A DNA stretch of 34,964 nt from a virus: the IMG/VR virus record IMGVR_UViG_3300023440_000014, positions 1-34,964 of that record, one strand, 5' to 3'. Below are positions 2,559 through 34,964 of the stretch, piece after piece; the first letter of the stretch is position 1, and each line of letters starts with the position of its first letter. The position numbers and the translations under genes are program-made. The notes under the pieces were generated by a model. That model had not been told where the DNA came from. It saw only the letters and a list, made by a program, of their open reading frames with translations, and ran no database searches.

Positions 2559-3266
2559 ATGAAGCATAGTATATTGAAAGTCAAAAACGTGGCGAGGATG
2601 GCGCTGGCCGGCGAGGCGCTGACCAATCGCGCCATCGGCATGCCCGGCATGGGGCTGGTGTACGGTCCGACCGGAGCCGGCAAGACCACCGCCATCACCT
2701 GGTATATCAATCAGTGCAACGGCGTGTATGTGCGGGCATGGGCGGTGTGGAGCCCCAGTGCCATGCTGGAGGCAATCTGCACCGAGCTGGATTTGCCCAA
2801 GGCGCGGAATCTCTCGCGCATGGCGGCGGATATTGTGGCAAAAATGGAGGAGACCGGCAGGGCGCTGTTCATTGATGAGGCCGATTATGTGATCGACCAG
2901 AAGCGCATGGTGGAAACATTGCGCGATCTGCACGATATGAGTTCAACGCCGGTGATCCTGATCGGCATGGAAGGCATTCATCGCAAAATACAGCAGCGCA
3001 AACAGGTATCCGGCAGGCTGGCTGAATGGGTGCATTTTGACCCGTGCGATATCGATGACGCCCGCATACTGGCAGACGGCCTGAGCGATGTGATTGTGGA
3101 TGATGATCTGCTGGATTACCTGTTCAAAAAAACGAGCGGGCTGGCACGCAATATCTGTGTCGGTCTGTCCAAAATCGAGCGGCGCGGCAAGCGGCTGGGG
3201 AAAGATCGCATGACACTGGCCGATTGGGACAAAAGCCAACCGTTCTTTGTCGGGCCGGGGGTGTAA
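2559..3266 (+). CDS. B: Transposition target-capture ATPase (MuB family)
   Basis: 235 aa AAA+ ATPase. Walker A GPTGAGKTT is at about residues 36-44 and Walker B ALFIDEAD at about 102-109 (D106, E107), followed by a sensor-like segment STPVILIGMEG. In Mu this protein forms ATP-dependent filaments on target DNA, delivers target to the transposase, and gives immunity to self-insertion. It is shorter than Mu B (312 aa) because it begins almost at the P-loop and lacks the N-terminal helix-turn-helix domain, as in other transposable phages. A Shine-Dalgarno AGGAG stands before the ATG. The start of the next gene overlaps its stop codon (TAATG). Confidence 0.93.
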   Translation: MKHSILKVKNVARMALAGEALTNRAIGMPGMGLVYGPTGAGKTTAITWYINQCNGVYVRAWAVWSPSAMLEAICTELDLPKARNLSRMAADIVAKMEETGRALFIDEADYVIDQKRMVETLRDLHDMSSTPVILIGMEGIHRKIQQRKQVSGRLAEWVHFDPCDIDDARILADGLSDVIVDDDLLDYLFKKTSGLARNICVGLSKIERRGKRLGKDRMTLADWDKSQPFFVGPGV

Positions 3267-3950: not shown

Positions 3951-4345
3951 ACAGATTAAGGATGAAATGGAAATCACAGGAGAAACCACAGCAGCGCAGG
4001 CCCGATCACCGGGAGCAGCCGCCAGCCTGGATCAGCGATGCGCAGCTTGATCTGCTGGCCAATCGCTATCAGGCCAATCATATCTGCTATCTGCTGGATA
4101 TCACCTTCGATGCCTACCTGCTGGCGCCGAAGGGATGGGATCGCATTGCAAAACACCTGCACAATGGCGGCGGCTGCCGCATGGAGGCCGGGCAGCTGGT
4201 GATGAACGATAAACCGCGCGCCGGGATTTGCGGCTGGTGCGAACGCTGGTGGAGTGCGCGATCCGGGGGGCTTAATGAGGGCGATTTATGCCCGGAGTGC
4301 GCCCGCAATATACTCATGAAAACCGGGGAGGCGCGGCATGCCTGA
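3947..4345 (+). CDS. Hypothetical early protein with CxxC pairs
   Basis: 132 aa, ATGA overlap with the previous stop. It is a basic, glutamine- and proline-rich N-terminus followed by a helical region (ISDAQLDLLANRYQANHICYLLDI). The C-terminal half has two CxxC pairs (CGWC near residue 94 and CPEC near 118), spaced as in a small zinc ribbon. I recognise no family. It is co-transcribed with its neighbours by overlap. Confidence 0.6.
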   Translation: MNRLRMKWKSQEKPQQRRPDHREQPPAWISDAQLDLLANRYQANHICYLLDITFDAYLLAPKGWDRIAKHLHNGGGCRMEAGQLVMNDKPRAGICGWCERWWSARSGGLNEGDLCPECARNILMKTGEARHA

Positions 4346-4478
4346 TTCAATCATGATTGTCCTGATTGTTGCGCTCGCATTCGGCGCACAGGTCATCATC
4401 TGGATTATCAAGGATATCGAAGCTGAAAAGCGCAAGAATGATGAAATCGAGCACTGGCTGAACGGTGGCAAGGGCTAA
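4338..4478 (+). CDS. 46-aa single-pass membrane protein
   Basis: Overlaps the previous gene by 8 bases. The protein starts MPDSIMIVLIVALAFGAQ and has one hydrophobic segment (about residues 5-24), then a charged helix (KDIEAEKRKNDEIEHW). It has the shape of a small inner-membrane protein with a cytoplasmic coiled tail. Upstream GGGGAGG serves as ribosome-binding site. The function is unknown. Confidence 0.55.
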   Translation: MPDSIMIVLIVALAFGAQVIIWIIKDIEAEKRKNDEIEHWLNGGKG

Positions 4479-4497
4479 GCAAACCACTACCGGAAGT

Positions 4498-4511
4498 GCG
4501 GCTTAAGCCGC
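4498..4511. promoter_or_regulatory. 14-bp perfect palindrome upstream of gam
   Basis: The 14-base sequence GCGGCTTAAGCCGC at 4498-4511 is its own reverse complement. It lies in the 63-base gap before gam, about 20 bases before the AAGGAG ribosome-binding site. It could be an operator for one of the helix-turn-helix proteins upstream, or an RNA hairpin; no T-run follows. Confidence 0.45.
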
Positions 4512-4541
4512 GCCCATAACCCACAAAAAAGGAGAAGAAAT

Positions 4542-5063
4542 ATGGCAACACGCAGAATCAAAACCAGCGCAGTAGGCCCTGTGCCGCAAGACAGGGAGCA
4601 GGTGCGCGATTATATCCTGCGCATCGGCAGGCATCAGAACGATCGCAAGCGCATCGAGGCCACCATGAACGATCAGATCCAGAAGATCAAAGACAAATAC
4701 CAGGCGCAGGCCGCCCCTCATGCCGAGCAGATCGCTGAATTATCACAGGGTGTGCAGGTCTGGTGCGAAGCCAATCGGGACAAGTTGACCAATGGTGGCA
4801 AGCGCAAATCCGCCGATCTCGGAGCCGGTGAAATCCAGTGGCGCACCCGCCCGCCCAAAGTGTCGCTGCGCAATATTCCGGGCGTGATTGAGGCGCTCAA
4901 GGCGCTGGGGCTGGCGCAGTTCCTGCGCACCAAGGAAGAGATTAACAAGGAGGCCATCCTGGCCGATCCGGAAGCAGCGCAGAATGTGAAAGGAATCACC
5001 ATCAGTCAGGGCGAAGATTTCGTCATCAAGCCGCACGAGAGCGAGCTTGAGGAGGTGGCGTGA
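4542..5063 (+). CDS. gam: Host-nuclease inhibitor Gam (Mu Gam family)
   Basis: 173 aa, matching the length of Mu Gam (174 aa). Gam is a Ku-like homodimer that binds double-stranded DNA ends and blocks host exonucleases such as RecBCD. The long N-terminal helix (DREQVRDYILRIGRHQNDRKRIEATMNDQIQKIKDKYQ) and the following WCEANRDKLT, ADLGAGEIQWRTRPPKVSLR and NIPGVIEALKALGL blocks are typical of the family. It has a good ribosome-binding site (AAGGAG). The next gene overlaps by TGATG at the stop. Confidence 0.95.
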   Translation: MATRRIKTSAVGPVPQDREQVRDYILRIGRHQNDRKRIEATMNDQIQKIKDKYQAQAAPHAEQIAELSQGVQVWCEANRDKLTNGGKRKSADLGAGEIQWRTRPPKVSLRNIPGVIEALKALGLAQFLRTKEEINKEAILADPEAAQNVKGITISQGEDFVIKPHESELEEVA

Positions 5064-7771: not shown

Positions 7772-8024
7772 TTTCAGAAGGCTTGACAGACACAGAAAAA
7801 AGGCGCAAGCATTCGCGCATCCCGGCCATAGTCGGGGGCGAGTTTTGCAGCTCGGAAACAGAAAGCAGACGCAAGCCTGCTTTCCCAAGCAAGGCTTTTT
7901 TTGTGTCTGTTGCACAGTTTACCACCCTATGGTGGATCGTGCGGGGAGGCGCAAGCCTGCTGGGTTCTTTCTGTTCCAGTCTGCAAACCTCGCACGGTCT
8001 GCCGCCAGTGTTTTGCAGCTCTGA
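7725..8024 (+). CDS. Possible Ash/Icd-like small phage protein (doubtful)
   Basis: An open frame here ends with PMVDRAGRRKPAGFFLFQ and NLARSAAS, which resembles the C-terminal part of the poorly understood Ash/Icd-like proteins found upstream of antirepressor genes in P4-like and lambdoid elements. The apparent start lies inside mor, and no good ribosome-binding site is visible, so the true start is unknown. The region also has a terminator and several hairpins, and may be a structured leader RNA with a fortuitous frame. A second overlapping frame (7768-8064) is equally open. Confidence 0.3.
   Translation: MRAGRVIYLPILKSNDFRRLDRHRKKAQAFAHPGHSRGRVLQLGNRKQTQACFPKQGFFCVCCTVYHPMVDRAGRRKPAGFFLFQSANLARSAASVLQL
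7873..7903 (+). terminator. Intrinsic terminator ending the early operon
   Basis: A GC-rich stem is formed by AAGCCTGCTT (7873-7882) and AAGCAAGGCTT (7887-7897) with one bulged A, a TCCC loop and a run of seven Ts (7896-7902). It lies about 100 bases after mor, so it should stop early transcription before the rha leader. Confidence 0.85.
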
Positions 8025-14803: not shown

Positions 14804-16069
14804 ATGAAAACCAAATACGGCTCGCTGCCGTTTGATGCGCAGATTGCGTTTTTTAAAAAGAAGCTGGCGCTACCCACGCGCAGCTGGACAGATATTATTC
14901 ACGGCAACCATGATCATGCTTTCGTGGTGGCAGGGGCGAACAAACAGGCGCTGGTGGAGAGTTTTCAGGCGGCGGTGCAAAAGGCGATAGCAGACGGAAC
15001 TACGCTGGCGGCATTCCGGAAAGACTTTGACCGCATTGTGAAAGAAGCGGGCTGGGACTATAACGGCTCACGTAACTGGCGTTCACGCGTGATTTATGAA
15101 ACCAATTTGCGCACCAGCTATCAGGCGGGCCGATTCACCCAGTTGCAGAATATGGACTACTGGCAATATCATCATTCGCCAGCATCTGAAAACGCACGCA
15201 AGCAGCATGTGGCATGGGATGGCCTGATTCTGCCGAAGGATGATCCATTCTGGCAAACCAACTACCCGCCCAATGGATGGGGTTGCAAATGTACCGTGAC
15301 AGGCCACAGTCGCGCCGCTGTGCAGCGTAAGGGACTGAAGATAGCCAAATCACCGAAGCTGGAGATGCAGACGGTGGAGATTGGCTCACAGGGGCCTAAC
15401 CCGCGCAGGGTTACTGTGCCGAAAGGCGTTGGACCCGGCTGGGCCTATGCGCCGGGGCGCGATGCATGGATGCGTGGACATGCCATACCACCCAAAGGCG
15501 ATGCGCCGTGGCCATTTACAAAAGGGGAAACCGGGCGGCATCATCTGATTCCGGATTTTGCAGCGCATGATCTGTTACCGGATGCACGCCCGTTTCCAAA
15601 GTCAAGATTGCTGCCGACAGGGAAGCCGCCTGCATTCTATGCTGATGCATTCCTGAAGGAATTTGGCGGGTCGGTTGGCAAAGATGCGCTGTTTATCGAT
15701 GTGACCGGTGAACCGCTTATCCTCTCCGATACCCTGTTTCGCAAAGCCAAAGACAATACATGGAAGGCAATGAAAAACGGGCGCGAGCAATACGCACTGA
15801 TGATGGCCGAAGTGCTGAAAGCTCCGGATGAGATATGGGTTGGTATGGAGTGGAACGGCGCATTGGGCAAGGCGGTTGTTCGGCGGCGCTATGTGAGCAG
15901 GCTGATACCGAAGGATGGCACTCGCCCCGGTTTTGTGGTCTTTGAAAATGCATCAGACGGGTGGACGGGTGTCACCAGCTTCCCACGAGATTTCAATACA
16001 AGCGTGGAATGGGATGCTGAAATATCGAAAGTGAGGCGGGGCGTTCGCCTGTATCGGCGACCGGAGTAA
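14804..16069 (+). CDS. F: Head morphogenesis protein (Mu gpF / SPP1 gp7 family) with C-terminal PBECR-like nuclease domain
   Basis: 421 aa. Residues about 1-180 match the phage Mu F-like minor head protein: FDAQIAFFKKKLALPTRSWTDI, WRSRVIYETNLRTSYQAGRF, NYPPNGWGCKCTV. This part is involved in prohead assembly at the portal. The last ~120 residues (FRKAKDNTWKAMKNGREQYALMMAEVLKAPDEIWVGMEW... VRRRYVSRLI... TSFPRDFN) look like the PBECR (phage Barnase-EndoU-colicin/RelE-like nuclease) domains often fused to such proteins and thought to act on host RNA after injection. The head role is well supported; the nuclease activity is family inference. Confidence 0.85.
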   Translation: MKTKYGSLPFDAQIAFFKKKLALPTRSWTDIIHGNHDHAFVVAGANKQALVESFQAAVQKAIADGTTLAAFRKDFDRIVKEAGWDYNGSRNWRSRVIYETNLRTSYQAGRFTQLQNMDYWQYHHSPASENARKQHVAWDGLILPKDDPFWQTNYPPNGWGCKCTVTGHSRAAVQRKGLKIAKSPKLEMQTVEIGSQGPNPRRVTVPKGVGPGWAYAPGRDAWMRGHAIPPKGDAPWPFTKGETGRHHLIPDFAAHDLLPDARPFPKSRLLPTGKPPAFYADAFLKEFGGSVGKDALFIDVTGEPLILSDTLFRKAKDNTWKAMKNGREQYALMMAEVLKAPDEIWVGMEWNGALGKAVVRRRYVSRLIPKDGTRPGFVVFENASDGWTGVTSFPRDFNTSVEWDAEISKVRRGVRLYRRPE

Positions 16070-24147: not shown

Positions 24148-24672
24148 ATGCCAGGTACAACATTAACCCCAGTCATTACCGATGCCGGATTGCAGGCTGC
24201 ATTCAACGCATCAAGCACGGGCATCGCGGCGGAAATCACCCATATCGCACTGGGCGACATCGGGTATACGCCGTTATCCAGTCGCACGGCGTTAGCCAAT
24301 GAGCGCATGCGGCTGCCTGTTGCGGATGGCTCGCCGGTGACGGCCACCCAGATTCACCTGACCGGCCTGGCCGCAGGCGCAATCGAATTCTGGGTGAAAG
24401 AGGTTGGCTTCTGCCTGGCGGACGGGACGCTGTTTGCGGTTTGGAGTGACCCTGCGCAGACACTGGCATACAAGGCTGCCGGCGTGGATTTGCTGCTGGC
24501 GTTTGATTTGTCAATTGCAGCCATTCCGGCCGGATCAATCACGGTACAGGGCACAGGGCAGAACCTGAGCCTGTACTACGCCGAAGAGCTCTCAAACATG
24601 GCTATAGCCCAGCTGGGCACCATGCATCGGCAGATATTGATTGAAGAGCAACTGCAAAAAGGAGGCTTGTAA
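24148..24672 (+). CDS. H: Tail-fibre / collar N-terminal protein (P2 gpH N-terminal type)
   Basis: 174 aa. It has the phage tail-collar fibre N-terminal fold (DUF3751): LTPVITDAGLQAAFNASSTGIAAEITHIALGDIGYTPLSSRTALANERMRLP, then WVKEVGFCLADGTLFAVWSDP. The C-terminus ends in a helical, probably trimeric, segment (MAIAQLGTMHRQILIEEQLQ). In P2, gpH is one long fibre; here it is short and stops exactly where the DGR variable protein begins (overlap at 24672). So the fibre is probably split into an anchor (this gene) and a variable receptor-binding protein. Confidence 0.85.
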   Translation: MPGTTLTPVITDAGLQAAFNASSTGIAAEITHIALGDIGYTPLSSRTALANERMRLPVADGSPVTATQIHLTGLAAGAIEFWVKEVGFCLADGTLFAVWSDPAQTLAYKAAGVDLLLAFDLSIAAIPAGSITVQGTGQNLSLYYAEELSNMAIAQLGTMHRQILIEEQLQKGGL

Positions 24673-26006
24673 TGCCATTAGAACAAACAATAACTCAGCT
24701 TGTAACCGCGTCAGATACGTTGACAAACGAGGTACGCCGATTGATCGGCCAGGCACCCGTTGCATCGCCGGTAAATCCGGGTCAGCAGGGATTCGGCGTG
24801 GGTATATGCCCCGGCCCACTGCCTGCCGGCATGGCGGAGATGCCCGGCACGCGCGATGTTGCGCATGATAATTACGGCAATTATATATTTTCAGACGGAT
24901 CAATCATGGTCTGGATACCTGCGTTTTATTACAAATGGGGCACAGGCACGAACGGGCTGGCAGTTAATATTGTGGACATCGTACCGTTTGTCGGCGGGCC
25001 CTACGGCACGGTCGCCACGGCCAACGCCGCAGGCTATGCCCTGCATCGCGCATTTTACGATGGCGGTGCAATTCAGCCGGGCGTGTTTGTTGATAAATAT
25101 CAGTGCAGCAACAACGGCGGCATTGCATCATCAATTCGATTTGCGAATCCGCTATCGACAAATGCAGCGCACAACCCGATTTCCGCGCTCAGCAATGCGC
25201 CCGCCAACAACTACGGCGGCGCAATTCTTGCGCCGAAATCGCGCGGCGCGTCCTTTTTCTGTAATACGCGTTTCATTTTTTCCGCCCTGGCCATGTTATC
25301 ACTGGCGCACGCACAAAACGCGACATCGACAACGTGGTGCGCATGGTATGATGCAGCAGGCATCACAAATTATCCGAAGGGTAATAACAATAATGCCCTC
25401 GGAGATACCAATGACGCATCCATTGCGTATGTATCTGATGGTTATCCCAACGCGGGCAAAACCGGCTCGGCAAATCTGTTTGCCCGCACAACGCACAATG
25501 GCCAAAACTGCGGCGTTGCGGATATGAACGGCAATATGTGGGAGATCAATCCGGGCATCACGTCAGACGGAGTAAATCTTTATGTGATGAGCACGTCGGC
25601 TAAAATGTCCGCATCAACGGCTGGCAACACACCACTGTCTACAGATGTGTTTGGCGCGGCAGCCCTGGCCGCGCGGTACATCAACCTGGGTGCAACGCAT
25701 GCATCGTTGTGGGCAACGGGCGCAAACAGAGCTGTTCCATTCGGCAGCCCTACAACCCAGACGCTATCAGATGCAACGTCCGGCGCGGCGTGGAACACTG
25801 CTGGCGCTGGAGTGCCGCTGGCGACCGGCGGCGCGAACGCATTCGGCATGGATTACATCTGGGATTACAAGCCAAATGAAATGTGCCCGCTCGCGGGCGG
25901 CTACTGGAACGGTGGCAGCAGCGCGGGCGTGTGGGCGTTGAATCTCGCCAATGTGCGAGCCGCCTCGAACAGCACCGTGGGCTTTCGCGCGGCCTTGTAT
26001 CTCTGA
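24672..26006 (+). CDS. DGR variable protein: receptor-binding protein with FGE-like C-type-lectin fold
   Basis: 444 aa. Residues 1-40 form a short helix that may bind the upstream fibre (LEQTITQLVTASDTLTNEVRRL). The rest is the C-type-lectin variant related to formylglycine-generating enzymes: CGVADMNGNMWEINPGI at about residues 279-295, and GGYWNGGSSAGVWALN with ANVRAASNSTVGFRAAL at the end. The last 41 codons contain the variable repeat. Ten residues (407, 409, 411, 414, 417, 426, 431, 434, 435, 441) differ from the template, all through template adenines. It is the DGR target and probable tail-tip ligand; variation would change host receptor. Confidence 0.93.
   Translation: MPLEQTITQLVTASDTLTNEVRRLIGQAPVASPVNPGQQGFGVGICPGPLPAGMAEMPGTRDVAHDNYGNYIFSDGSIMVWIPAFYYKWGTGTNGLAVNIVDIVPFVGGPYGTVATANAAGYALHRAFYDGGAIQPGVFVDKYQCSNNGGIASSIRFANPLSTNAAHNPISALSNAPANNYGGAILAPKSRGASFFCNTRFIFSALAMLSLAHAQNATSTTWCAWYDAAGITNYPKGNNNNALGDTNDASIAYVSDGYPNAGKTGSANLFARTTHNGQNCGVADMNGNMWEINPGITSDGVNLYVMSTSAKMSASTAGNTPLSTDVFGAAALAARYINLGATHASLWATGANRAVPFGSPTTQTLSDATSGAAWNTAGAGVPLATGGANAFGMDYIWDYKPNEMCPLAGGYWNGGSSAGVWALNLANVRAASNSTVGFRAALYL
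25881..25993 (+). repeat. DGR variable repeat (VR)
   Basis: Aligned without gaps to 26446-26558, offset 565. All 85 positions that are not adenine in the template are identical. Of 28 template adenines, 13 differ here: seven are G, five are C, one is T. The 3' part (CGTGGGCTTTCGCGCGG, 25976-25992) is unchanged and GC-rich as expected of an IMH (initiation of mutagenic homing) element. Homology ends at about 25995, 11 bases before the stop codon. Confidence 0.96.
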
Positions 26007-26015
26007 GCGATTGAG

Positions 26016-26039
26016 CGATAGCGATATGAGCGGTTATCG
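26016..26039 (+). promoter_or_regulatory. Hairpin just after the VR (candidate homing structure)
   Basis: CGATAGC (26016-26022) pairs with GTTATCG (26033-26039) with one G-T wobble and a 10-base loop. It begins 10 bases after the target-gene stop and ends right before avd. In the Bordetella phage DGR a hairpin directly downstream of the IMH raises retrohoming. This one lies within short GAGCGAT-type direct repeats, so the assignment is tentative. Confidence 0.45.
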
Positions 26040-26042
26040 ATA

Positions 26043-26444
26043 ATGGGCATGCACGATGAAGCTAATCTGGATCGTAAGTTCACAGAATTTGCGAAGCTGA
26101 TGAATATCCACCTGAACCACTTCCCGAAGCATGAGAAGTATGGTCTGGCGCTGGAAATCCGGCGATCGGCTTATGAAATGTATGGATTTATCGTGGAAGC
26201 ACAGACGCGCTATCACAAAAAAACCACGCTAACGAATCTGGATATCAGGCATGAGCAATTGCGCATGCTGATCAGGCTGGCCTATAAGCTGGGATATTTC
26301 GGGTTCAAGGCGGGAAAGATTGCCGAGCAATCGCCAAAACAGCAGGGCGAGCATCGTTATCTCGCACTGTCAAAACTGGTTGACGAGATCGGCAAAATGA
26401 TTGGCGGATGGATTGTATCTACACGTCAACGGGAATCATCTTGA
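26043..26444 (+). CDS. avd: DGR accessory variability determinant (Avd)
   Basis: 133 aa, the usual size of Avd (about 125). It is an all-helical protein of the four-helix-bundle family also found as the 23S rRNA intervening-sequence protein: LMNIHLNHFPKHEKYGLALEIRRSAYEMYGFIVEAQTRYHKK, LTNLDIRHEQLRMLIRLAYKLGYF, HRYLALSKLVDEIGKMIGGWI. Avd is a pentamer that binds the DGR RNA and the reverse transcriptase and is essential for cDNA synthesis. It lies between VR and TR, its stop being one base before the TR. The ribosome-binding site is weak. Confidence 0.92.
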   Translation: MGMHDEANLDRKFTEFAKLMNIHLNHFPKHEKYGLALEIRRSAYEMYGFIVEAQTRYHKKTTLTNLDIRHEQLRMLIRLAYKLGYFGFKAGKIAEQSPKQQGEHRYLALSKLVDEIGKMIGGWIVSTRQRESS

Positions 26445-26445
26445 T

Positions 26446-26558
26446 ATGTGCCCGATCGCGAGCGGCAACTGGAACAATGGCAGCAACGCGGGCGTGTGGG
26501 CGTTGAATCTCAACAATGTGCGAGCCAACTCGAACAACAACGTGGGCTTTCGCGCGGA
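26446..26558 (+). repeat. DGR template repeat (TR)
   Basis: Non-coding template, 113 bases, directly downstream of avd. It reads in the VR frame as an Asn-rich peptide (11 AAC/AAT codons). AAY codons let adenine mutagenesis reach many residues without a stop codon. Differences from VR occur only at adenines (13/28). A frame that runs through it (26401-26697) is not considered a gene. Confidence 0.96.
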
Positions 26559-26696
26559 CTCGATACCTCACGGGCAGCAATGCCGAAGTGGAATCAAGGG
26601 AGATGATTTCCGGCGCGTGGGTTCGCCCCACGGCGAAATCTGCACATGCCGCCATTCTGGTAGGATTAATGATAATCTCGAAGGTCTGGCGGCATG
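26559..26696 (+). ncRNA. DGR spacer RNA between TR and RT
   Basis: In characterised DGRs the RNA just downstream of the TR primes and positions cDNA synthesis. Here it is clearly structured. CGTGGG (26616-26621) and CCCACG (26627-26632) form a perfect 6-base stem with loop TTCGC. CATGCCGCCA (26645-26654) and TGGCGGCATG (26687-26696) form a perfect 10-base stem that includes the RT start codon. Inside its loop GATTA/TAATC (26664-26668, 26673-26677) form a second stem with ATGA loop. The RT ribosome-binding site GAAGG is in the large loop. Confidence 0.7.
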
Positions 26697-27713
26697 AAGC
26701 GGGTTGGTGATTTGTACGACAGTGCATTTACGCGTGATGCGCTGCTGACCGCATACCATGCGGCAGCAAGGCACAAACACGGCAAGCGCGCGTGCTTTAA
26801 TTTTGAGCGCAGACTGGCATTCAATCTCGAATCGTTATATTGCGAATTACGCGACGGTATTTATCAACCAATGCCATATTACACGTTTGAAGTTTTTGAG
26901 CCAAAGCGCCGCACAATCTATGCACCGGCGTTTCGCGACCTCGTTGTTCAGCATGCTATTTATGCTGTTGCAAATCCGATATTCGATCGCACGTTTATCG
27001 ATCATTCATACGCATGCAGAAAAGGCATGGGTACACACAAGGCAGCGGACTATGCGCAAGCGGCATTGCGCGCCGTTCCGCATGACAGCTATACGCTAAA
27101 GACTGACGTGCGGAAGTTTTTCTATCGCATCGATAGAGGCATTCTGCGCACCCTGATTGAGCGCAAAATAAAGGACAATCGCTTCGTTGGTTTAATGATG
27201 GCGTTCGCTGATCACGGTGAGTCGGTCGGCATCCCAATAGGCAATCTACTGTCACAGCTTTATGCGCTGATTTACCTCAACCCGATGGATCAATTTGTGA
27301 AGCGCGAATTGCGCGTAAAATACTACTGCCGCTATGTTGATGATGCTGTGCTGTTTGGGCTGTCAAAAGCCGAGTGCATTGACGCAAAAAACAAAATCGA
27401 GACGCTGCTCAAGACGCTCAATCTGGAGTTATCGCACTACACAATAGCGCCGGTCAAAAAAGGCGTGAATTTTGTTGGCTATCGCACATGGGCGAGTCGC
27501 CGGTTTATCAGAAAACACAGCCTCTATAAATTCAGAAAGTCACTGAAAAAAGGCGATGTAAAAAGCGCCGTTTCAATCCTCGGTCACGCCAGAAATACCA
27601 GCTCATTGAATTCGATGTTGAGTTACATAAAAAAGGAGAAAAAACATGAAAATAGTCAGCTACAAAAAACATATCACACCCTCAGTCACTGTGTCCCTGG
27701 TGCTGTCTGTTGA
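26694..27713 (+). CDS. DGR reverse transcriptase
   Basis: 339 aa, the compact size of DGR enzymes, with RT domain only. The catalytic aspartates are in TLKTDVRKFFYRID (D138) and YCRYVDDAVLF (YVDD, residues 214-217). Motif 4 reads GIPIGNLLSQLYALIYLN (about 179-196), the form with I/V-G-x3-SQ that sets DGR enzymes apart from retron and group II RTs. The enzyme copies TR with adenine-specific errors. It starts inside a 10-base hairpin stem. Its 3' end overlaps the next gene by 68 bases. A C-rich, poorly conserved tail (QLQKTYHTLSHCVPGAVC) may be a by-product of that overlap. Confidence 0.95.
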   Translation: MKRVGDLYDSAFTRDALLTAYHAAARHKHGKRACFNFERRLAFNLESLYCELRDGIYQPMPYYTFEVFEPKRRTIYAPAFRDLVVQHAIYAVANPIFDRTFIDHSYACRKGMGTHKAADYAQAALRAVPHDSYTLKTDVRKFFYRIDRGILRTLIERKIKDNRFVGLMMAFADHGESVGIPIGNLLSQLYALIYLNPMDQFVKRELRVKYYCRYVDDAVLFGLSKAECIDAKNKIETLLKTLNLELSHYTIAPVKKGVNFVGYRTWASRRFIRKHSLYKFRKSLKKGDVKSAVSILGHARNTSSLNSMLSYIKKEKKHENSQLQKTYHTLSHCVPGAVC

Positions 27714-28101
27714 TAAGAGCGGTCAATTTGTCGGCACAGAACTGGCAACTCTGAGTGACGGGCTGACATACGTCAGCATGCCTGCGTCGGCAACGCTGCC
27801 CGCGCAGCCCAAGGAGATCGCCAAGACAGTCACTGACGGCGCTACACTATCAGCGACTACGCTCGCAGATCTGAAGGCGGCATCGCCACATGTTAAGCTG
27901 ATAAATGATCGTGTGTGCGAAAAAATTCGCGAGCAGTACTCCCTGGATGATGAGCTAAAGCTGGCGCGCATCTCAATCGGTAATTTGCAAAAAACATACA
28001 CCGCCAGCGCGGCGGAGTTACAGGCCGTGACCGACTATCAGGTTGCAGTAGAAGCGGCGCGGGCGTGGGGCCGGGCGGAAAAAGCGAAGTTGGGACTATA
28101 A
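27646..28101 (+). CDS. Unknown protein at the tail-fibre-assembly (P2 gpG) position
   Basis: 151 aa with a strong ribosome-binding site (AAAAGGAGAAAAAAC), starting 68 bases inside the RT gene. It has a beta-rich N-terminus (KIVSYKKHITPSVTVSLVLSVDKSGQFVGTELATLSDGLTYVSM) and a helical C-terminus (SAAELQAVTDYQVAVEAARAWGRAEKAKLGL). In P2 the gene between the fibre and the sheath (G) is the fibre chaperone. No motif of that family is seen here, so the chaperone role is an inference from position. It could instead be a DGR-linked accessory protein. Confidence 0.7.
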   Translation: MKIVSYKKHITPSVTVSLVLSVDKSGQFVGTELATLSDGLTYVSMPASATLPAQPKEIAKTVTDGATLSATTLADLKAASPHVKLINDRVCEKIREQYSLDDELKLARISIGNLQKTYTASAAELQAVTDYQVAVEAARAWGRAEKAKLGL

Positions 28102-34748: not shown

Positions 34749-34793
34749 CTAAAACCATTCGCCGTACGCGCTAAAACCATTCGCCGCGTTACA
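34749..34793. repeat. Phage right end: tandem transposase-binding repeats and terminal CA
   Basis: CTAAAACCATTCGCCG occurs at 34749-34764 and again at 34771-34786, a 22-base period. In Mu the right end has MuA sites R1 and R2 that are 22 bp each and adjacent. The sequence GTTACA follows and ends in CA at 34792-34793, the expected 3' terminal dinucleotide of the Mu family. From 34794 the sequence encodes a host kinase. So the phage-host junction is most likely after 34793. Confidence 0.82.
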
Positions 34794-34943
34794 CCGTTTT
34801 TTACCACCAAAGGCGTGGGTGAGGGCACAGGCCTGGGTATGGCGATGGTTTATGGCGCGGTTCAGAATCATCGCGGCCTGATTGATATCGACAGTACGCA
34901 ATGCTCAGCAAGAGCAGTCCTCATCCACAGTACACCCCTCTGA
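34794..34943 (+). pseudogene. Host (hybrid) sensor histidine kinase fragment cut by the prophage
   Basis: The frame from 34794 reads [21 protein letters not shown] then [12 protein letters not shown], the G2 box and end of a histidine-kinase ATPase domain. Its N-terminal part is missing because the prophage sits just before it; the rest should lie left of the prophage. After LIDID the expected final GT motif is not seen and the frame stops at 34941. A different frame continues from 34891 ([24 protein letters not shown]) and looks like a linker to a receiver domain. The host gene may therefore carry an additional frameshift or deletion. Confidence 0.72.
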
Positions 34944-34964
34944 TTTGATTGCCGCGCAAGGTGC

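Follow-up and report, generated by a model that had tools for sequence, protein, structure and literature searches.

Positions 24672-27713 of the window (the whole 34,964-nt stretch of viral DNA analysed here) almost certainly form a complete diversity-generating retroelement (DGR) of the kind found in BPP-1. The prophage that carries it is transposable, BcepMu-like and a mosaic of Mu and P2. The earlier note had placed all DGR parts here in the order target with variable repeat (VR), Avd, template repeat (TR) and reverse transcriptase (RT), and the open reading frames and repeats match this order. The anatomy of the element, the adenine-specific divergence of its repeats, the clade of its RT, the predicted fold of its target, and the conserved RNA and stem-loop were observed or computed here. 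The cassette is real and very probably functional, and from these features we infer the activity of its enzyme and RNA. It is a clear new member of a well-known kind, to which BPP-1, hankyphage and ACA1 belong, and not a new type of system. The parts of the element, the transposition genes, the C4 RNA, the end repeats and the host flank described below lie on the + strand.

The backbone agreed with the Mu/P2 mosaic that had been proposed for this prophage, with Mu-type head and transposition genes joined to a P2-type tail. A MuA-type transposase (257-2476; HTH_Tnp_Mu_1, rve and Mu-transpos_C) and a MuB-type DNA transposition protein (2559-3266; phrog_296, E 1.2e-54) lie at the left of the window. 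The Mu-type head genes comprised Portal_Mu (E 2.4e-94), Phage_Mu_F and Mu Gp27, and Phage_tail_S was also present. The baseplate and tail genes (Tail_P2_I, Baseplate_J, GPW_gp25, Phage_base_V, sheath and GPD) were of the P2 type. At its C-terminus, the Mu F-like protein (14804-16069) has a PBECR2 nuclease-like domain (E 4.6e-28). A C4 antisense RNA, a phage regulatory RNA known from P1 and P7, was found at 7925-8009 (Rfam RF01695, 65 bits), and no other Rfam family was matched in the window. The transposase scan of viral contigs yielded no match; therefore, relatives of the backbone were read only via their DGR-side loci.

At the right end, positions 34794-34964 translate into the 3' part of a host histidine-kinase gene. 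We placed the probable right phage end at 34794 because most bacterial-genome matches to this flank begin at that base. The right junction is inside the histidine-kinase gene, and the left end of the phage is outside the window. Next to the junction stand two copies of CTAAAACCATTCGCCG (34749-34786), which are probable transposase end-binding sites; a search for this pair elsewhere found nothing. The best matches to the flank (84% identity, E 3e-24) came from the class to which the Mariprofundaceae MAG with the nearest genomic relative of the RT (72%) belongs. Given this shared class, a zetaproteobacterial host is likely. In 143 genomes of another class, no flank match was obtained at E 1e-18.

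The TR (26446-26560) starts directly after the avd stop codon, and the VR (25881-25995) precedes it at an offset of 565 nt. In an ungapped comparison, the two stretches diverge at once outside these limits, and within them the VR has no non-adenine difference from the TR. The counts of the earlier note were exact over 26446-26558: all 85 non-adenines are identical and 13 of 28 adenines differ (7 to G, 5 to C and 1 to T). Its reading of all 13 differences as the mark of mutagenesis held for 12 of 27 adenines, but not for the last one, in which an A of the TR (26558) faces a C of the VR (25993). This is a fixed difference: 55 of 59 related loci likewise show A to C, as do 20/20 loci of a 20-locus comparison. 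Since it recurs in 55 of the 59 loci, we take 26558/25993 to be the start of the IMH*/IMH boundary and not a mutation event; in those 55 loci, the fixed A to C is followed by divergence. In the remaining 112-nt mutagenic core (VR 25881-25992), 12 of 27 adenines were changed (7 to G, 4 to C and 1 to T) and none of 85 other bases. The probability that 12 random differences in this core would all hit its 27 adenines is 4e-9. A second VR was not detected: other places in the window match the TR core at the background level (44/90 vs 89/90 for the VR).

The adenine-only pattern was also maintained across the family. Over 59 related loci with distinct TR/VR pairs, the VR was changed at 801 of 1427 TR adenines versus 44 of 4827 other bases, and the adenines were replaced by G (460), C (204) or T (137). 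In the frame of the target gene, the TR contains 11 AAY codons, and none of its 17 adenine-bearing codons can be turned into a stop codon. The in-frame AAY codons allow wide variation without stop codons.

The avd gene (26043-26444) encodes a protein matching PF22296 bAvd (E 3.8e-18, above the Pfam cut-off) and phrog_3206 'Avd protein of DGR' (E 2.9e-26); its score was slightly below the NCBIfam cut-off (75.1 vs 80 bits). The RT gene (26694-27713) matched RVT_1 and phrog_1423 (E 8.8e-98), and its product has the IPIGNLLSQ and YVDD motifs. An RT phylogeny, which had been suggested as a check on the element, was constructed by maximum likelihood from 29 RTs, including 19 DGR RTs as well as group II and retron RTs. 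A branch supported at 100/99 separated every one of the DGR RTs (those of the window, its relatives, BPP-1, VP58.5, ACA1, BalMu-1, YPCBV-1 and others) from the group II and retron RTs. The window RT paired with that of the related locus L003 (support 100/98). A retron or group II identity of the RT was considered and ruled out by this tree. The C-terminus of the RT overlaps a small downstream gene (27646-28101) by 68 nt (27646-27713). This gene matched no credible Pfam or PHROG family and is kept in most relatives. As it is also kept in loci lacking Avd and RT, it goes with the target and not with the RT. At a guess, its product might be a fibre chaperone.

The target gene (24672-26006) encodes a 444-aa tail-tip variable protein with the VR at its 3' end (residues 404-441). 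The earlier note had assigned it to the position of P2 gene H. This was right for the receptor half, but the gene H N-terminal domain is in a separate open reading frame (24148-24672), which encodes a tail-collar fibre protein for baseplate attachment (PF12571 Phage_tail_fib, E 1.1e-8; phrog_3737 tail fiber protein, E 3.5e-65). The same split of gene H is seen in ACA1, in which the corresponding protein is called 'tail fiber hub attachment subunit'. The target itself matched no Pfam family. A profile of 17 target relatives hit one credible solved structure, 5vf4 (E 3e-6), which is TaqVP, the DGR variable protein of Thermus aquaticus. When the single sequence was aligned to TaqVP, the VR fell on the C-terminal variable stretch of TaqVP. 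The fold was then taken from a model of residues 37-444, built on a 59-sequence alignment of the conserved part (pLDDT 86.5, pTM 0.91); an AlphaFold2 model of the full-length target with 17 sequences (pLDDT 42) was set aside. The model used aligned with TaqVP over 297 residues (Z 30.1, rmsd 3.0) and also resembled Mtd (Z 13) and Treponema variable protein 1 (Z 11). The structure prediction thus agrees with the C-type-lectin fold of DGR variable proteins that had been anticipated for the target.

Two further elements of the cassette were missing from the earlier note. One is the spacer between TR and RT (26559-26693), which, judged by covariation in 21 alignable loci, is predicted to be the structured 3' part of the DGR RNA. 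Its consensus structure has 30 pairs, and 95.8% of the cells are paired; sliding the pair partners as a control gave 33-50%. The percentage paired is biased upward, since the pairs had been drawn from this very alignment. The two-sided changes, found in 17 of the 30 pairs, are the stronger evidence, and none of 500 shuffles was as high on any measure. In BPP-1, the corresponding spacer folds and recruits bRT-Avd (PMC12875486).

The other is a post-VR stem-loop element at about 26007-26031, with the loop GATA at 26017-26020. Guo et al. describe the hairpin or cruciform after the VR of DGRs as having a GRNA loop and a GC-rich stem of 7-10 bp (PMC3240598). In 24 loci, a GRNA loop (GATA, GGTA, GAGA or GAAA) occurs after the VR at a nearly constant distance, and most loci of the target family have an inner stem with a tandem G.A step and a single 3' bulge. 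Thermodynamic folding by itself does not single out this hairpin in most loci, but the covariation test does: among 17 distinct hairpins, the outer stems formed 73 pairs versus 29 expected after exchanging arms (0/2000). The window loop fits GRNA. Its stem, with two GC pairs, the tandem G.A and about one to two A-T pairs, is below the typical 7-10 bp and gave no folding signal (z +1.1). The halves around GATA look like direct repeats and not like a clean inverted repeat. The outer stem is nearly gone throughout the sublineage of the window (the window, L003, L004, L006, L007, L008 and L067), which conserves the sequence GAGCGATTGAGC-GATA-GCGATATGA with tandem G.A pairs. The 25-nt element is identical in all seven members, and the bases beyond it vary. 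The RTs of L003, L004, L006, L007 and L008 differ from the window RT by 21-29%. An exact search located a 26-mer of the element in six viral contigs, records of the same sublineage included. The predicted stem is weak in this sublineage, yet the element (26005-26030 in the window) is strictly conserved. Tentatively, what is recognised in GAGCGATTGAGC-GATA-GCGATATGA may be its sequence or a DNA structure of a non-standard kind; we consider such a variant way of recognising the DGR target possible but doubtful.

A third point absent from the earlier note is the loss of Avd, TR and RT in relatives of the element. A target search of viral contigs found 420 relatives, of which the best 80 were read. 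In 11 loci, the target had no adjacent Avd or RT match (L063, L070, L071, L084, L090, L093, L100, L104, L112, L117 and L123), and remnants of the mutating engine, such as avd joined to the 3' end of the RT gene, were seen in others (e.g., L075, L088 and L099). In L063, which has tail genes 73-87% identical to those of the window, an HNH endonuclease gene (4328-4960, - strand; phrog_374, E 1.7e-70) sits exactly at the place that Avd, TR and RT occupy in close relatives. The target and the small gene after it persist in the loci that lost the engine, and several independent deletion forms were observed. False joins in metagenomic assemblies could produce such arrangements, but the losses take several different forms.

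We considered other explanations of these results. The repeat by itself is 88% identical, as might be expected of an ordinary gene duplication beside an RT that is unrelated to it and of the retron or group II type. The presence of Avd, the restriction of the differences to adenines (P 4e-9), the same adenine pattern in 59 loci, and the position of the RT inside the DGR clade, from which group II and retron RTs are excluded, all speak against a duplication, which we regard as extremely improbable. A cassette that was formerly active but is now idle in the present phage, with the VR as a frozen allele, is less easily dismissed and is nevertheless unlikely. The weak post-VR stem in the sublineage of the window would suit an idle cassette, as would the relatives that retain the target without Avd, TR and RT. 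On the other hand, the RT and Avd reading frames are intact, the spacer RNA pairs are kept, TR and VR have accumulated zero stray non-adenine differences, and loci with a VR differing from their own TR strictly conserve the post-VR element. The DGR is presumably still working in the present phage, with activity in its recent past.

The role of the target was weighed in the same manner. The DGR might diversify a virion protein other than the receptor binder, for example a decoration protein or a surface protein of the lysogen. C-type-lectin folds do occur in non-receptor proteins, and formylglycine-generating enzymes share the fold of the target more weakly (Z about 10). However, gene J, gene I and the N-terminal half of gene H immediately precede the target, an arrangement shared with the ACA1 antireceptor (PMC10612066), and the predicted model of the target is structurally similar to Mtd. 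A non-receptor role is accordingly quite improbable, and we consider the target a presumed receptor-binding protein.

The tropism-switching DGR of BPP-1 (mtd-avd-TR-brt) shares with the window the order and spacings of its parts, the adenine-specific TR/VR divergence, the RT clade, a C-type-lectin target at the tail tip and the place of the post-VR stem-loop. The TR follows avd directly in both, the VR-TR offset is 565 nt in the window and 556 nt in BPP-1, and the spacer is 133 and 144 nt, respectively. In contrast to the window, BPP-1 has a perfect 8-bp GC stem after the VR, and its RT is 34% identical. BPP-1 is not a Mu-type phage. Pseudomonas phage Bise encodes the closest annotated RT relative (58%) and has a TR/VR pair and contractile tail genes, but its DGR is located close to the end of the genome, behind another target protein, with a TR-VR offset of 714. 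The Bacillus phage BalMu-1 and the Chromohalobacter phage YPCBV-1 also have a tail-region target, an RT (36-40% identical to that of the window) and a TR/VR pair. In BalMu-1, genes for transposases A and B are present, and the target is only 27% identical over half its length. An Avd is annotated in YPCBV-1, for which the term Mu-like is used (PMC9769972).

In the Pseudoalteromonas phages ACA1/ACA2, gene H is likewise split, and an antireceptor, Avd, TR, RT and one more small gene accompany the P2-type tail (PMC10612066). ACA1/ACA2 and Vhmlvirus (VHML and VP58.5) share with the window the P2-type tail and the separate gene H N-terminal half, followed by antireceptor, Avd, RT and small gene (PMC10612066). 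They differ in not being of the Mu type, and their RTs are 36-37% identical to that of the window; their antireceptor was absent among the tblastn matches of the window target. BcepMu is an example of a Mu-like phage whose tail proteins resemble those of P2 (PMC10612066). Hankyphage, a transposable phage of Bacteroides, has an active tail-fibre DGR whose activity was seen in reads (PMC6199706, PMC12135933). It is like the window in combining Mu-type transposition with a tail-fibre DGR and differs in its Bacteroides host, a likeness taken from its published description. The literature therefore already contains a transposable phage in which a tail-fibre DGR is active (PMC6199706, PMC12135933) and the split gene H layout (PMC10612066). 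More than 30,000 DGRs were reported by Roux et al.; three of the lineages are carried mostly by phages and seem to act on proteins for host attachment (PMC8144416).

Given this anatomy, the element would work as follows. The avd-TR-spacer-RT transcript would supply the structured RNA, and the RT-Avd complex would copy the TR with errors opposite adenines. With the IMH and the post-VR stem-loop as guides, the cDNA would then take the place of the VR in the 3' end of the target gene. The receptor-binding half of the split gene H, with its C-type-lectin fold, would be the target, so that the receptor tip of the tail fibre would be rewritten.

The present system leaves the known picture of DGRs unchanged. 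Its target is one of a large family of such phage proteins; of the 420 relatives in viral contigs, the best 80 were read, and the loci are numerous enough for covariation to reveal RNA and DNA signals. The natural losses of the mutating engine with the target intact mean that receptor evolution with and without targeted mutation may be compared in close relatives.
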